NCBI RefSeq assembly: GCF_037201965.1
Contig: NZ_CP147518.1
Coordinates: 1,053,001 to 1,117,000 of the forward strand
Length of the DNA: 64,000 bases
Source of the DNA: Spirosoma sp. SC4-14
GTDB lineage: Bacteria > Bacteroidota > Bacteroidia > Cytophagales > Spirosomataceae
Reading direction: 5' to 3'
The notes under the pieces were generated by a model, which had not been told where the DNA came from, did not search any database, and saw only the letters and a program-made list of their open reading frames with translations. Position 1 is the first letter of the stretch. Every line of letters begins with the position of its first letter. Shown here one piece after another: positions 30,302 to 40,275 of the stretch. Position numbers and translations under genes: made by a program.

Positions 30302-30372
30302 CCAGTATTGGGCCAGTCTGCCAGTTATTAAGCCATATTGACCGATTGTAAAGTCATAGCTACCGATTAGTA
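30302..30372 (+). promoter_or_regulatory. Phased direct repeats, candidate LytTR sites upstream of DUF3592 gene
   Basis: Four related 10-mers lie in a row: CCAGTATTGG (30302), CCAGTTATTA (30321), CCGATTGTAA (30342) and CCGATTAGTA (30363), spaced 19, 21 and 21 bases. The cores sit 39, 60, 81 and 100 bases before the candidate -7 box. A closely matching set precedes the GAF-kinase operon. LytTR regulators bind direct repeats about two helical turns apart. Confidence 0.5.
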
Positions 30373-30384
30373 AGTAGGGTTAGG

Positions 30385-30411
30385 TTGCGCAGTATATGTG
30401 CCTCACTTTTG
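30385..30411 (+). promoter_or_regulatory. Candidate promoter for DUF3592 gene
   Basis: TTG at 30385-30387, 16 bases, then CACTTTTG at 30404-30411. It is weak against the consensus, which fits a promoter needing an activator. It lies 13 bases after the last phased repeat. Confidence 0.4.
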
Positions 30412-30437
30412 TTTATCCTCTTTTTACTATTTAGAAA

Positions 30438-30899
30438 ATGGCAACAATTCTTCCGTTACTAATCGCTTTTGGCGGCTTGTTTTTTGGGGCTTTGTTTTTC
30501 TTCGTCGGCTGGTACCTGTGGTATGATGGCCGTGATCTTCGCACGAGTGGGCTTACGGTGACAGCAACCATTCTGAAAAAATTTCGGAAAGCGGATCAGG
30601 GAGCCTGGGGTAATCTGGAAAGTTATTATGCTCAATGTCTGTTTCACGACGCTGCGGGGCAGCCTCGTGAGGTCGATGTGTATATGCACTCAAGGCTTTG
30701 GGCGCAGGTAACTGAAGGCACTACTACGCAGCTTACCTATGTGCCCGACGAGCTGGATGAGCCACTCCCCGGCTCACGATCGAATTGGGAGGTTCGTGGC
30801 ATTGTTGGCGTTGGCCTGATGGCCTTTGCGGTGTTGCTCATTCTTACGCTGACCATTGGCGGCATTCAGGCCTGGCTCAGTGCCAATCATGCGTTTTAA
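30438..30899 (+). CDS. DUF3592 domain membrane protein
   Basis: A 153-residue protein with a hydrophobic segment at each end (about 5-27 and 122-146) and a soluble part between, carrying the DUF3592 pattern: LTVTATILKKFRK, YYAQCLFHDAAGQPREVDVY and TTTQLTYVPDELDEP. The middle part should lie on the side opposite both short tails. Function is unknown for the family. The phased repeats upstream suggest control by the LytTR regulator 5 kb away. It is convergent with the giant kinase gene, with 44 bases between stops and no clear hairpin. Confidence 0.82.
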   Translation: MATILPLLIAFGGLFFGALFFFVGWYLWYDGRDLRTSGLTVTATILKKFRKADQGAWGNLESYYAQCLFHDAAGQPREVDVYMHSRLWAQVTEGTTTQLTYVPDELDEPLPGSRSNWEVRGIVGVGLMAFAVLLILTLTIGGIQAWLSANHAF

Positions 30900-30943
30900 C
30901 GGGTTAATCATTGGTTTTCAGGTGGCTTCCTTAGGGGGAATGA

Positions 30944-33900
30944 CTATTCATTTTGCCCGTCGAGTGCTGGCAGTTGAACAATGACACGCGTACCGGCAGG
31001 TTCCTGCTGATCGGTTGTTTTATCAATAACTACAACGCCCGATTCTTTACCTGTTCGTTGGGTGATGAGCTGAAGGCGCTCTTCGGTTACTTTCAGCCCT
31101 ACACTCTTATGCGACGAAACGGTTCTGCTTTTTAGCTCCTGCGCTTTTTGTCGTCCTACACCATCGTCGTCTATAATACACTCCAGATGGTCGTTTTTGG
31201 GATAAATAGCTACCGTTATTGTGCCACCGGTTTTCTTATGTGCCATACCGTGCAGAATCGCATTTTCGATATAGGGCTGAATAATCATGGGAGGAATAGA
31301 TAATTTTTCCGGCGATAGCGCCGGGTCAATGCCCAATGTGAAGTCGAATTTATGATTGAATCGTAACTGTTCGAGTTCGAGGTAGAGTTGCAATTGCTCT
31401 AACTCGCTGCTCAATGTGACCCACTCCTGGCGGGAGTTATCCAGAATCAGGCGCATCAGTCGGGCAAACTTAACCAGGTACTTGTCGGCATTGTCACTGT
31501 CGTTTTGCAGAATAAACAACCGGATAGCGTTTAGCGAATTGTACAGAAAATGCGGGTTCATCTGCGACCGAAGCGCTTTCATCTCCGAAGCGGCAATACG
31601 TTCGCGGAGTTCGCTTTTTTCCTGTTGCTCGCTGGCTACCCGCTTCTCGCGCCAGCGGGCCAGAGTTACGGCAATAGTCAGAAGCGTTGTTAGGGCAATT
31701 AGTCGAAACCACCAGGTTTGCCAGAAAGGGGCCTGAATGGTTATGGCTAATCGGTAGCCTTCCCGGTTCCAGACGCCATCGTTATTCGAAGCAATCACAT
31801 GCAGCACATAGGAGCCAGGAGGTACATTGGTATAGCTGGCAAAGGGCCGGTCGTTGGTCTGATTCCACTGCTCTTCAAAATTTTCGAGTCGGTAAGCATA
31901 TTGATTACCAGATGAATGATCGAAGCTTAACGCAGCCATTTCGAAGGAAAAAGCATTTTGCGCCGGACCCAGCACCAGACTCGGCGGATTGGCCAGGGGG
32001 CCGGATAGCCAGACCCGATCAACGGTTCGGAACGAAGAAATATAGACCGGCGGGACAAACGAATTAAGTTGTATGTGTTTAGGTTCCAGATAGACCAAAC
32101 CCCGCATGGCTCCGAAATAGAGCCGTCCTGTTGAGTTGAATGCCATAGCTCCTGATTCAAACTCTGCCGATGGACTGCCGTCCGATTCATCAAAAACCGT
32201 GAAGGCTAACCGGCGGGTATCGACGCTGACAATACCCCGACTGGTGCTGACCCAAAGCGTATCGCCGACTAACCGCAGTGCGGCAATGTCGTTGTTGGGC
32301 AGGCCATGTCGGGTCGTATAAATTGTGAAGTGTTGCGTGTGCTGGTTCAAACAGGCAAGGCCATTGTCGGTACTCATCCAGATACGGTTGTGCCGATCTT
32401 CGACAAAATCGGTAACGCCGTCGTCGGGCAGGCTGTTTGGGTTGTCTTCCTGATGCGTATATTCGGCTAGTAGGGTCAGATCAGGGCTGATTTTATATAC
32501 GGGGCCTAAACCGCCAACCCATAAATTATTGTGTCGGTCAAAACAAAGTGTATTGTAATTTTTGCCGGGGAGTTTTCGAATTCGTTCGTCGTTGAATCGG
32601 TTGAAAAAAAGATGGGTTTGTGGGTCGTAGACAGTTAGTTTCTCGTTCGTGCCGAAATATAAACGTTTGTCGGGTCCCTCAACCACACTAAATACCTGAC
32701 TCCCGGCCACAAAATTGTGTCGATCAGAATTGAATTCAGGATAGATACCAGGATGTTCGGGTAGGGGTAAACACAGGATTTGTTCAACTTGTCCTGTAGT
32801 TGGATTAAGTTTATCGAGTCCCGTTGGGCTACCTATCCAAACAGCTCCCTGCGAGTCGGCCAGGATCGAATAGGTGAAGTTATTGTGTAGGCTAGCCGCA
32901 TTTTTGGTGTCGTGCCGATACAGCCGATACGTCTGTGTTTTGGGGTTGATCCACACAATGCCATCGCGGGTTGCTACCCAAAGGCAATTTTTCTGGTCAA
33001 ACGACAGCCCGCAGGCATCCAGTCCCAGAGTGGAGGTTGGGCGGTAGCCTACATCGTCGAAAAGCGAATTGATCTTACTGACGGTTGGATTAAACCAGCT
33101 AACGCCCGCATCGTCGGTGGTTACCCATATAACGCCACTGTTGTCCTCAAAAAGTGCTTTTACCGAGTTTGAGACCAGACTTCTGGGATTTGTTTCATTG
33201 TTGGTATACGACGAAAATCGCCTAGTAGCCGAATCATAGCGGAATAGCCCTCTACCCGTAACGCCTACCCATAAAGTGCCCGTTCGGGTATATAACAATG
33301 ACCCTATTTCCTGATTCGTAGCGTCCAGAGGGAGTTGTCGGAATTGACCGGATGCAGGATCAAGAACCGCAACGTGGCCCATACGAGTGCCTAACAGAAT
33401 CTCTTTCGTTTGTGGGTTAAGCGTCAGTGCCGATACATAATCATACGGCAACGAAGTGGCGATTGATACGTTGTGACGAAAGGATTTAAACTGCCGGTTC
33501 TGTCGATTGTAGGCATATAATCCTGACTGGGTCGCAATCCATAGCGTGGTCCCATCCATCAGCACGCGACGAATGCTATTGGCCGCCTGATGGGAGGCCG
33601 AATCTGACGGTATAACCAGTAATTTGGCTTTGGCTGTTGCCGGGTTAAAGACAACTACTCCACCACTGGTAGCAAACCAAAGTCGACCATCGGGGCTTTC
33701 AGCAGCATGCCGAATCAGGTTACAGCCTGCCCCCAATGAAGCAAAGGAGTAATGTTGAAAGCGTTGCGTTTCAGGCAGAAAACGATTCAGCCCATTTTGA
33801 GTGCCTATCCATAGTGTACCCTTTTGGGCTCGGAAAATGCTGCGCACCAGCCGATTCGATAGCGAATATGGGTTTCCGGGTTGATGCGCGAAGGTAACAC

Positions 33901-34171
33901 ACCGCTGACCGTCGAAACGGGTTAGACCATTAACGGTGCCGAGCCAGATAAAACCCAGCGTATCCTGCGTAATGGACGTAGTGAAATTGGTGGCCAGTCC
34001 CTGTTGTAAGGTCAGCCGCTGGAACAGTATGGTGGATGACTGGCACTGTGCATTTCCCCGGAAAATCACCAGCAAAAATAGCAGCAGATAGCCTCGATAT
34101 TGGCCGTTTGGGGAAAGGCCGCTCAACCCGAATACCTTTTTTGATCCGCTATTACGCTCACTACTGATCAT
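30944..34171 (-). CDS. Two-component propeller LytS-type sensor histidine kinase
   Basis: A 1075-residue membrane sensor. A signal anchor lies at about 26-45. A long periplasmic region follows, built of two-component-regulator propeller repeats (many copies of the GxIWxGT/xxGLxRF pattern, such as LGFIWLGTVNGLTRFD). A Y_Y_Y domain comes next (about 735-805, with YRLENFEEQWN), then a membrane segment at about 815-835. The cytoplasmic part is a LytS-class kinase: phospho-acceptor H874 in MNPHFLYNSL, N-box QPYIENAILHG and G-box DDDGVGRQ. Unlike hybrid sensors of this type it has no receiver or DNA-binding domain, so it needs a partner. The adjacent LytTR regulator is the obvious candidate. Confidence 0.93.
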   Translation of the reverse strand: MISSERNSGSKKVFGLSGLSPNGQYRGYLLLFLLVIFRGNAQCQSSTILFQRLTLQQGLATNFTTSITQDTLGFIWLGTVNGLTRFDGQRCVTFAHQPGNPYSLSNRLVRSIFRAQKGTLWIGTQNGLNRFLPETQRFQHYSFASLGAGCNLIRHAAESPDGRLWFATSGGVVVFNPATAKAKLLVIPSDSASHQAANSIRRVLMDGTTLWIATQSGLYAYNRQNRQFKSFRHNVSIATSLPYDYVSALTLNPQTKEILLGTRMGHVAVLDPASGQFRQLPLDATNQEIGSLLYTRTGTLWVGVTGRGLFRYDSATRRFSSYTNNETNPRSLVSNSVKALFEDNSGVIWVTTDDAGVSWFNPTVSKINSLFDDVGYRPTSTLGLDACGLSFDQKNCLWVATRDGIVWINPKTQTYRLYRHDTKNAASLHNNFTYSILADSQGAVWIGSPTGLDKLNPTTGQVEQILCLPLPEHPGIYPEFNSDRHNFVAGSQVFSVVEGPDKRLYFGTNEKLTVYDPQTHLFFNRFNDERIRKLPGKNYNTLCFDRHNNLWVGGLGPVYKISPDLTLLAEYTHQEDNPNSLPDDGVTDFVEDRHNRIWMSTDNGLACLNQHTQHFTIYTTRHGLPNNDIAALRLVGDTLWVSTSRGIVSVDTRRLAFTVFDESDGSPSAEFESGAMAFNSTGRLYFGAMRGLVYLEPKHIQLNSFVPPVYISSFRTVDRVWLSGPLANPPSLVLGPAQNAFSFEMAALSFDHSSGNQYAYRLENFEEQWNQTNDRPFASYTNVPPGSYVLHVIASNNDGVWNREGYRLAITIQAPFWQTWWFRLIALTTLLTIAVTLARWREKRVASEQQEKSELRERIAASEMKALRSQMNPHFLYNSLNAIRLFILQNDSDNADKYLVKFARLMRLILDNSRQEWVTLSSELEQLQLYLELEQLRFNHKFDFTLGIDPALSPEKLSIPPMIIQPYIENAILHGMAHKKTGGTITVAIYPKNDHLECIIDDDGVGRQKAQELKSRTVSSHKSVGLKVTEERLQLITQRTGKESGVVVIDKTTDQQEPAGTRVIVQLPALDGQNE

Positions 34172-34335
34172 ACGGAAAAGCTGCCCGTTGTATCTTCTAA
34201 TACCGGCGAAGCGAAGATAAAGGCTATTTCAACTGAGCCTGTTTCTGGTTGATGGAACGGTAGTGCTATTTTTAGCAGGATGCCGAATGAGCCTTGAACT
34301 CACAGCGATACAATTGCTAAAGAGCGTTCAGAACC

Positions 34336-34386
34336 GGTAGTTATCGGCCCAGTCGCCCAGTTATTCACTCAAAACACCCAGTTACA
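34336..34386 (+). promoter_or_regulatory. Phased direct repeats, candidate LytTR sites upstream of GAF-kinase operon
   Basis: Three 10-mers with the core AGTTA: GGTAGTTATC (34336), CCCAGTTATT (34356) and CCCAGTTACA (34377), spaced 20 and 21 bases. Their cores lie 80, 60 and 39 bases before the candidate -7 box. The register matches that in front of the DUF3592 gene. They could also act on the divergent giant kinase gene, whose start is 165 bases away. Confidence 0.55.
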
Positions 34387-34398
34387 GGTTAAGACTAC

Positions 34399-34426
34399 TT
34401 TGTTCGTTATTCATGGTTTTTCTTTG
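34399..34426 (+). promoter_or_regulatory. Candidate promoter for GAF-kinase operon
   Basis: TTTG at 34399-34402, 16 bases and TTTCTTTG at 34419-34426, one mismatch from TAnnTTTG. It lies 12 bases after the last phased repeat, and the spacer is the same length as in front of the DUF3592 gene. Confidence 0.45.
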
Positions 34427-34449: not shown

Positions 34450-35691
34450 GTGGCGAGTAAAGAAACAATACGTCGATCAACCAGTCTCTGGAAATCTTTG
34501 AAAGGTGAACTCGAAGCCGAACGTATTATTAATGAATTTGCAATGTCGCTGCTTGAACAGAGCACGGTAGATGAAGTCGTTTGGGATGTCGCTAAAAACT
34601 GTATTGCCCGGTTGCATTTTGTCGACTGCGTGGTGTATCAGCTCGATCGTCAACGCAATGTATTGGTGCAGAAAGCGGCTCACGGCCCAAAAAACCCGAC
34701 AGGTCATGTTATTTTACATCCAATCGAAATTCCAGCCGGTGTTGGTATTGTTGGTGAAGTTGCCCGAACGGGTCAGCCCGAGGTAATTGGTAATACGGCA
34801 CTTGATAAGCGTTATATTGCCGACGACGCCGTTCGGAATTCGGAGATTACGGTCCCGATTTGGGTTAATGGCCAGGTGTGGGGAGTGCTGGATGCCGAAC
34901 ATCCACAGGCGAATTTTTTTCAGCCCCAGCATTTGAAGATTCTGACAACCGTGGCAGCTCTCTGCTCGCAGAAAATTAAACAGGTAGAAATGGAAGAGGC
35001 CTACCGGCGGGCCGAACGCCAGCTCATGGAAACCAACCGACGGGTGGCCGAAACCAAGCTAACCGCGCTGCGAATGCAGATGAATCCGCATTTCATTTTC
35101 AATAGCCTCAATTCAATCAATAAGTTTATCTTGCAGAACGATGGCGAGCGAGCATCTGATCTGCTGACTAAATTTTCGCGGCTGATCAGGCAGGTGCTCA
35201 TTAACTCCCGAGCAGAATGGGTATCGTTGCGCAATGAACTGAACGTTTTGCAGATTTATCTGGAACTGGAGCGCCTTCGGAGCGATAATAAATTCGATAT
35301 TCTATTCAGCATTAGCGACGATCTGAATCTCGACATGGTTCACGTACCGTTGCTCATTACGCAGCCTTATGTCGAAAATGCAATCTGGCACGGATTGCTG
35401 CCCATGCAGGGAGGAAAGCCCCAATTGCAGATCCAGTGTCGGCAGGAAAAGGACCGATTAATAATCGATATAGAAGATAATGGTATTGGCCGGGCGGCTT
35501 CGGCCCGGCTTCAGGCCAATAGCCTGACGGCGCATAAAACACATGGCATCGCCATTACGGAAGAACGTCTGAACCTGATCAACGAGATGTATGGGGCCGA
35601 TGCCCGAATTACGATTTGTGATCGCTATAAAGCAGGGAGTACACCCACTGGAACGCACGTTTGCTTTACCCAAAAATTAACCTCTTTCTGA
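34450..35691 (+). CDS. Cytoplasmic GAF-domain LytS-type histidine kinase
   Basis: A 413-residue soluble kinase using a GTG start at 34450, since no in-frame ATG precedes the conserved part. A GAF domain covers about 25-175 (with GVGIVGEVARTGQPEVI and ITVPIWVNGQVWGVLDAEH). A coiled linker leads to the His_kinase domain with H214 in MNPHFIFNSLNS, an N-box QPYVENAIWHG and an ATP-binding region with DNGIGRAAS. It has no membrane segment, so it senses a cytoplasmic signal. Its stop codon overlaps the start of the LytTR gene by one base (TGATG), so the pair is translationally coupled. A paralogous kinase is encoded divergently. Confidence 0.93.
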   Translation: MASKETIRRSTSLWKSLKGELEAERIINEFAMSLLEQSTVDEVVWDVAKNCIARLHFVDCVVYQLDRQRNVLVQKAAHGPKNPTGHVILHPIEIPAGVGIVGEVARTGQPEVIGNTALDKRYIADDAVRNSEITVPIWVNGQVWGVLDAEHPQANFFQPQHLKILTTVAALCSQKIKQVEMEEAYRRAERQLMETNRRVAETKLTALRMQMNPHFIFNSLNSINKFILQNDGERASDLLTKFSRLIRQVLINSRAEWVSLRNELNVLQIYLELERLRSDNKFDILFSISDDLNLDMVHVPLLITQPYVENAIWHGLLPMQGGKPQLQIQCRQEKDRLIIDIEDNGIGRAASARLQANSLTAHKTHGIAITEERLNLINEMYGADARITICDRYKAGSTPTGTHVCFTQKLTSF

Positions 35692-36431
35692 TGACCGCCA
35701 TTTTAGTTGACGACGAAAAACATTGCCGGGATGTGTTGGCCTTATTATTGGCCAAATATTGCCCAACGGTTGATTTGCTGGCTCCCTGTGCCGACGGACG
35801 GGCAGGATTGGAAGCCATTGAACGCTATCGGCCTGATCTGGTTTTTCTGGATATTGAAATGCCGGGCATGAGTGGATTCGATATGCTGGCAGCTTGCCGG
35901 TTTACCAGTTTCCGGGTGATTTTTACAACGGCCTACAATGAGTATGCGATTCAGGCAATTCGGCATAATGCGCTGGATTACATTCTGAAACCAGTTGATA
36001 AGGATGAACTGGTTCAGGCAGTTAGCAAAGCCATTCAGGAGCGGGAGCATCGATCGGCGGCCAGTGTCGACCAGTTTGTCGAATACCTTACACGGCAAAA
36101 ACTGGGCGATCGAATTGCCCTTCCAACCATGGAAGGGCTTCAGATTTTGAAAGCCGATGACATTTACTATTGCGAATCGGATGGGGGCTATACGCACTTT
36201 TTTCTGACTAATGGAAAAAATGTTCTGATATCCAAGACGCTCAAAGAGGTGGAAGAGGTTTTAGAACACAAGGGGTTTTGCCGGGTTCATCATGGCTTTC
36301 TGATCAATCTGCGCTATGTACAGCGGTACATTCGTGGCGATGGGGGTGAGGTTGTGATGGACAACAATAAAACATTGCCTGTTTCGCGAAATAAAAAACA
36401 GGAATTTCTAAGCCTGCTGGAGAAAATCTGA
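35691..36431 (+). CDS. LytTR family response regulator
   Basis: A 246-residue response regulator. The receiver domain (1-120) has the acidic pair DDE near residue 7 and the phospho-acceptor D54 in LVFLDIEMPGM, with the conserved Lys in ILKPVDK. The LytTR DNA-binding domain is at about 143-246 (IYYCESDGGYTHFFL, LEHKGFCRVHHGFLINLRYV, and PVSRNKKQEF at the end). LytTR proteins bind direct repeats spaced about 21 bases, matching the repeats at 34336 and 30302. It is coupled to the GAF kinase gene upstream and followed after 24 bases by a lipoprotein gene. Confidence 0.95.
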   Translation: MTAILVDDEKHCRDVLALLLAKYCPTVDLLAPCADGRAGLEAIERYRPDLVFLDIEMPGMSGFDMLAACRFTSFRVIFTTAYNEYAIQAIRHNALDYILKPVDKDELVQAVSKAIQEREHRSAASVDQFVEYLTRQKLGDRIALPTMEGLQILKADDIYYCESDGGYTHFFLTNGKNVLISKTLKEVEEVLEHKGFCRVHHGFLINLRYVQRYIRGDGGEVVMDNNKTLPVSRNKKQEFLSLLEKI

Positions 36432-40138: not shown

Positions 40139-40219
40139 AGACTACGGCATCTGATTCGAATCTACTAAAAGTAAGCGGTAGCCCAGGAAGTTGCCAGAAG
40201 TAGTTAATAACCGGTATAG

Positions 40220-40275
40220 ATAAACAAATAAGCGGTGGCTTTTTAATGCTAAAAAGCCACCGCTTATTTGTTTAT
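40220..40275. terminator. Large hairpin terminator of DUF1223 gene
   Basis: Perfect 25-base arms (40220-40244 and 40251-40275) with a 6-base loop. Read on the minus strand it lies 12 bases after the DUF1223 stop. Both arms carry a run of five A or T beside the loop and an AT-rich base. Confidence 0.8.

Follow-up and report, generated by a model that had tools for sequence, protein, structure and literature searches.

A LytTR-domain response regulator encoded in a 64 kb stretch of Spirosoma sp. SC4-14 DNA (the window) probably activates its own operon, gene 30438 and a scattered set of targets through direct repeats located upstream of a −7 box (Table 1). The regulator would bind two, or sometimes three, ACCnGTTAT-like repeats spaced about 21 nt apart and recruit RNA polymerase there; the start of the last bound repeat lies 41 nt upstream of a Bacteroidota −7 box. 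By acting on its own kinase–regulator operon it would generate positive feedback, and it would also act on gene 30438 and on scattered genes that are mostly for small membrane proteins, lipoproteins and secreted proteins. We infer that it binds these repeats, that it activates rather than represses, and that it is phosphorylated by the GAF kinase and perhaps also by the divergent Reg_prop kinase. An earlier note on this DNA had proposed a LytTR regulon with autoregulation, and at the level of sequence this is well supported by conservation of register and by co-occurrence of sites with the LytTR gene. The regulon looks wider than that note proposed.

Table 1 Features of the window relevant to the proposed regulon
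Feature	Position	Strand	Basis or remark
Operon repeat 1, GTAGTTAT	34337..34344	+	variable among relatives
Operon repeat 2, CCAGTTAT	34357..34364	+	in-register conservation
Operon repeat 3, CCAGTTAC	34378..34385	+	in-register conservation; 21 nt after repeat 2
Operon −7-like box, TTTCTTTG	34419..34426	+	CTTT-type box at same place in 19/22 orthologous promoters
GAF / His_kinase sensor kinase, GTG start, 413 aa	34450..35691	+	domain matches and relatives
LytTR response regulator, proposed binder of the repeats	35691..36431	+	domain matches; start taken as 35691, the listed open reading frame using an upstream TTG
Gene 30438 promoter repeat 1, CCAGTTAT	30321..30328	+	
Gene 30438 promoter repeat 2, CCGATTGT, degenerate	30342..30349	+	
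Gene 30438 promoter repeat 3, CCGATTAG, degenerate	30363..30370	+	
Gene 30438 −7-like box, CACTTTTG	30404..30411	+	same box in 5/5 orthologous promoters
Gene 30438, 153-aa membrane-type protein, DUF3592 in the earlier note	30438..30899	+	no Pfam match
Candidate VWA-gene site: CCGCTTAT (40235), CCGGTTAT (40214), box TACTTTTA (40173)	40166..40235	−	matrix score
VWA-domain protein, candidate target in own genome	37373..40138	−	
Divergent Reg_prop / Y_Y_Y / His_kinase sensor kinase	30944..34171	−	possible second input

The regulator has Response_reg (3.9e-22) and LytTR (1.6e-19) Pfam domains, and the listing from a search of solved structures matched receiver domains. The GAF/His_kinase gene lies directly upstream in the same operon, an adjacency that is kept in relatives. 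The cores described in the earlier note are present where it placed them: a script check finds AGTTA at 34339, 34359 and 34380, which is 80, 60 and 39 nt before the operon box at 34419, and the cores of gene 30438 (AGTTATT at 30323, GATTGTA at 30344 and GATTAGT at 30365) begin 81, 60 and 39 nt before its box at 30404. The DUF3592 label did not hold, as the 30438 protein matches 0 Pfam families at E 0.001 and at E 1; its likeness to DUF3592 is a resemblance only.

Kinase relatives occur at E 1e-60 in 14 of the 36 genomes of the genus (own genome counted); across the family, 55 of 222 genomes, from 4 of 36 genera, have them at E 1e-80. We compared 22 upstream regions from genera g1, g22 and g31, excluding more distant relatives. 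The last two repeats and the −7-like box keep their register: repeat 3 follows repeat 2 by 21 nt in every one of the 22 aligned operon promoters, three being weak cases, and in 19 of the 22 the 21-nt core spacing is followed by a CTTT-type box at constant distance. L040, L042 and L058 have a weaker core pair and GTAGTTGC at the place of the box. Repeat 1 varies: its distance to repeat 2 is 20 or 21 nt, and in the g22 promoters it is not recognisable. Register is likewise conserved in 5/5 promoters of the 30438 family, and the 27 promoters together (22 operon and 5 of the 30438 family) align without gaps across 76 columns. Between the repeats and the box, the column that is invariant across 26 aligned sites is the T of nCT(A/G), 23 nt before the box start. 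A −33 box with a 16-nt spacer, which the earlier note took to be shared by the two promoters, was rejected as a conserved feature, the spacer not being kept among the relatives' promoters and the −33 region not being a conserved TTTG. We take g22 to be Larkinella because the site sequences at the Larkinella loci L273 and L274 are identical to those of the g22 genomes. Both loci carry two strong same-strand sites about 210–240 nt apart upstream of the kinase gene (L273:1437 and 1647; L274:1408 and 1648).

The spacing of about 21 nt, which the earlier note had likened to LytTR sites, is kept across operon promoters from two genera and matches the published layout, in which two 9-bp repeats separated by a 12-bp spacer lie directly before the promoter (PMC2714321, PMC6193735). 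These papers describe cooperative binding of such repeats, through which HdrR autoregulates. For the housekeeping sigma factor of Flavobacterium, the −7 box is described as TAnnTTTG (PMC9723704), and the layout reported here fits both the LytTR sites and this box.

For scoring we used a matrix built from 18 operon sites, all from other genomes; the training sites of this matrix and of the model used below were chosen by us. Over both strands of the window three matches exceed 9 bits: the operon (30.3), the VWA gene (15.0) and gene 30438 (13.9). Across 318,730 own-genome positions the next best after those three is 13.2 bits in L028, at a place crossed by a 136-codon open frame, and then 6.0. 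The 30438-type promoters of relatives score 28.1 (G005), 27.4 (G002), 25.9 (G004) and 14.9 bits (G033) with this operon-only matrix. When the box is left out and only the cores are scored, the in-register pair of gene 30438 falls to 2.6 and a low rank (G033 5.5); its first two repeats reach 20.0, second behind the operon. More sites of the same spacing occur in the relatives' neighbourhoods, before genes for an ankyrin membrane protein, a 130-aa membrane protein, lipoproteins and a 186-aa secreted protein. An initial pattern search of the own genome, which gave at least 151 matches versus at least 82 for its control, was set aside.

Orthologues of the LytTR gene (73–90% identity) are present in 14 of the 36 genus genomes, own counted, and other relatives are at most 49% identical. 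A first model, R1, found two strong matches in the own genome but not the VWA site; a second, R2, was therefore built on a larger set of sites (26, Larkinella sites included). Its per-genome counts are lower bounds, at most 134 candidates being scored in each genome. At E 0.05 each of the 14 genomes with the LytTR gene has at least 2 to 14 matches; among the 22 genomes lacking it, G002, G033, G027 and G012 have at least one each and 18 have none among the candidates scored. The matches in G002 and G033 belong to the 30438-type gene, the G002 site having been in the training set; that in G027 is partial (2.3e-4) and that in G012 has E 0.048. Counting only sites more than 20 kb from the operon, and setting aside the 30438-type sites of G002 and G033 in genomes without the LytTR gene, at least 59 sites fall in 12 of the 14 LytTR-bearing genomes at E 0.05, versus at least 2 in 2 of the 22 others (G027 and G012). 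At E 0.01 the counts are at least 49 in 12 of 14 versus at least one. G025 and G030, which have the LytTR gene, show no such distant matches among the candidates scored; G025 is 84% complete. Absence of the LytTR gene is less certain in G026, G027 and G029 because these genomes are incomplete (82%, 80% and 71%, respectively). At least 8 to 17 matches are found in each of seven Larkinella genomes and at least three in G209.

Of 99 listed R2 matches, 40 were fetched (37 away from the operon, 3 near it). Among these, 33 have no open frame of more than 150 codons running across them, which holds for 519 of 2000 stretches drawn at random from these loci, and 39 have a likely start within 157 nt. 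The sites in L160 and L166 lie 123 nt before a 284-aa open reading frame that we take to resemble indole-3-glycerol phosphate synthase, an odd member among the targets.

In the own genome R2 gives at least four matches: the operon, gene 30438 and the VWA gene, all three in the training set, and a new one (3.4e-5) before the gene for a 94-aa membrane protein (G000:C1:2235155-2235436). We scored target families with a matrix containing no own-genome site and no site from the families tested, for which 99.99% of 408,354 background positions lie below −2.4 bits; this set includes some true sites and has a maximum of 66.9. For the 94-aa gene, 7 of the 9 genes in LytTR-bearing genomes score 17.5 to 32.8 bits with the box 56–86 nt before the start, no site being found in G030 and G025, and none of the five genes in genomes without the LytTR gene has a site (−10.6 to −28.6 bits; one is in the 71% complete G029). 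A gene with a DUF4468 (Pfam) domain is present in 14/14 genomes with the LytTR gene and 4/22 without. Ten of the 14 score 17.5 to 33.7 bits and the others 8.2 (G015), 0.7 (own genome), −5.1 (G025) and −23.8 (G030); none of the four in genomes without the LytTR gene has a site (−21.1 to −26.5 bits). The own DUF4468-type gene, L269 (G000:C1:4854261-4854803), has a weak site in which TACATTTG occupies the position normally taken by the box. In the candidate site of the VWA gene, which scores 18.2 bits in the own genome with the target-family matrix, the box is 35 nt before the ATG. The 18 other VWA genes scanned score at most 0.0, with G018 and G033 near 0, and the VWA gene as a conserved target is unsupported outside the own genome. 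The VWA protein is present in 20 of the 36 genomes, and its tree, a gene tree rather than a species tree, needs 6 changes of LytTR label, 5 of them forced by supported branches.

All 12 fetched Spirosoma neighbourhoods that contain the operon have the divergent kinase next to it, as does G209; neither of two Larkinella neighbourhoods does. Spirosoma neighbourhoods hold two kinases (34450–36431, with its regulator, and 30944–34171 in the window), one of them without an adjacent regulator gene, and one LytTR gene common to both. That the divergent kinase feeds the same LytTR regulator is our guess. The operon-trained matrix found no site on its side in the window. Opposite-strand sites of at least 18.5 bits occur in five relatives' neighbourhoods (L069, L070, L073, L081 and L082), and in L073, L081 and L082 they precede the divergent kinase; those in L069 and L070 were rejected as sites of that kinase, as a 308–322-aa open reading frame lies between and is itself preceded by the site. 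A broader reading, which we put forward tentatively and would not yet favour, is of a two-genus regulon in which one LytTR regulator, served by two kinases (the divergent one with its own opposite-strand sites in some species), would switch on itself and scattered envelope genes, the bound activator replacing the −33 element of the Bacteroidota housekeeping sigma factor in a promoter class of fixed geometry.

LytTR-type repeats at gene 30438 and other targets could instead be bound by another LytTR regulator, or by several paralogues. The own genome has 55 LytTR matches, and counter-evidence to the proposed regulon comes from G002 and G033, which retain the 30438-type gene and its repeats without an orthologue of the operon's LytTR gene, showing that these repeats can outlast the regulator or serve another one. 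In these two genomes a similar 261–266-aa open reading frame follows the 30438-type gene (L071:10144-11115 in G033, L072:10807-11607 in G002), where the window has the kinase–LytTR module; in G033 the VWA gene is kept beside this region. Matrix matches also stand beside one group of paralogues (21.5 bits in L115 of G023, 10.1 in L100 and 2.8 in L114), and the best among 16 paralogue loci elsewhere in the genus are 21.5 (L115), 10.1 and 6.7 bits. However, the 22 genomes without the orthologue have other LytTR genes, yet the sites away from the operon are concentrated in the LytTR-bearing genomes as counted above, and a scan reaching 1.5 kb to each side of 29 other own LytTR loci gave scores below −1 at 26 and scores of 18.2 (L028, inside an open frame), 6.5 and 6.0 at the remaining three. 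We consider this explanation improbable, although related regulators may share the motif or part of it because of the matches in L115 and L028 (18.2). At L115:2272 (+), L100:1458 (−) and L114:2266 (+), beside LytTR paralogues that are 47–49% identical, there is a conserved segment comparable in length and layout, with different repeat letters (CTCACCCAAA ... TACTCATT ... GGTAGGA), and this segment may be the paralogue's own site.

Even less probable is that the operon's regulator represses its own operon and targets. PlnD is a LytTR repressor that binds the same kind of repeat as the activator PlnC (PMC2714321), but repeats that precede the box by a constant distance, together with a −33 region that is not a conserved TTTG, would fit activation. 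A chance pattern is very improbable: an individual core is short and own gene 30438 has degenerate repeats, but this explanation is contradicted by the in-register conservation, the co-occurrence with the LytTR gene and a reversed-sequence control that gave a maximum of 5.3 bits across 31 sequences, against 39 to 41 bits. On this control and the matrix scores in the window we rejected it. Activation by the operon's own LytTR regulator remains the preferred reading.

Beyond Spirosoma and Larkinella, a scan covering 19 of 80 LytTR-relative loci gave no match above 1.9 bits at 14 of 15 other loci, whose LytTR relatives are at most 57% identical. The exception, L281, has an 80% identical LytTR gene and matches of 40.3 and 18.0 bits; its record is titled Flavobacterium sp. 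SUN052, and it may be a mislabelled contig, a transfer or a true relative. If the proposed regulon is correct, it provides a testable site, a first target list and the layout of a promoter, and a single signal would connect many small membrane and secreted proteins that are as yet unnamed.

AgrA of Staphylococcus aureus is a response regulator with a LytTR domain whose core, ACAGTTA, appears similar to the Spirosoma repeats, and it differs in phylum, promoter type and targets. The literature listings and abstract openings consulted contain no description of a LytTR binding site or regulon for Spirosoma or other Cytophagales; repeats have been noted before LytTR Regulatory System-like operons of Bacteroides (PMC6193735). 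With receiver and LytTR domains, a sensor kinase and 9-bp repeats with a 12-bp spacer before its own operon, the Spirosoma system has the predicted make-up of a two-component LytTR system and falls outside the LytTR Regulatory Systems, which have a membrane inhibitor instead of a kinase. It resembles PlnC/PlnD of Lactobacillus plantarum, two-component LytTR regulators described as acting on tandem 9-bp repeats with a 12-bp spacer, including those of their own regulatory operon; unlike Spirosoma, they use the repeat TACGTTAAT and −35/−10 promoters, serve bacteriocin peptide quorum sensing and belong to another phylum (PMC2714321). It also resembles HdrRM/BrsRM of Streptococcus mutans in autoregulation and in 12-bp-spaced direct repeats of similar letters (for example ACCACTTAT), but whereas that regulator is held by a membrane inhibitor, the Spirosoma regulator contains a receiver domain and is partnered by a kinase (PMC6193735).
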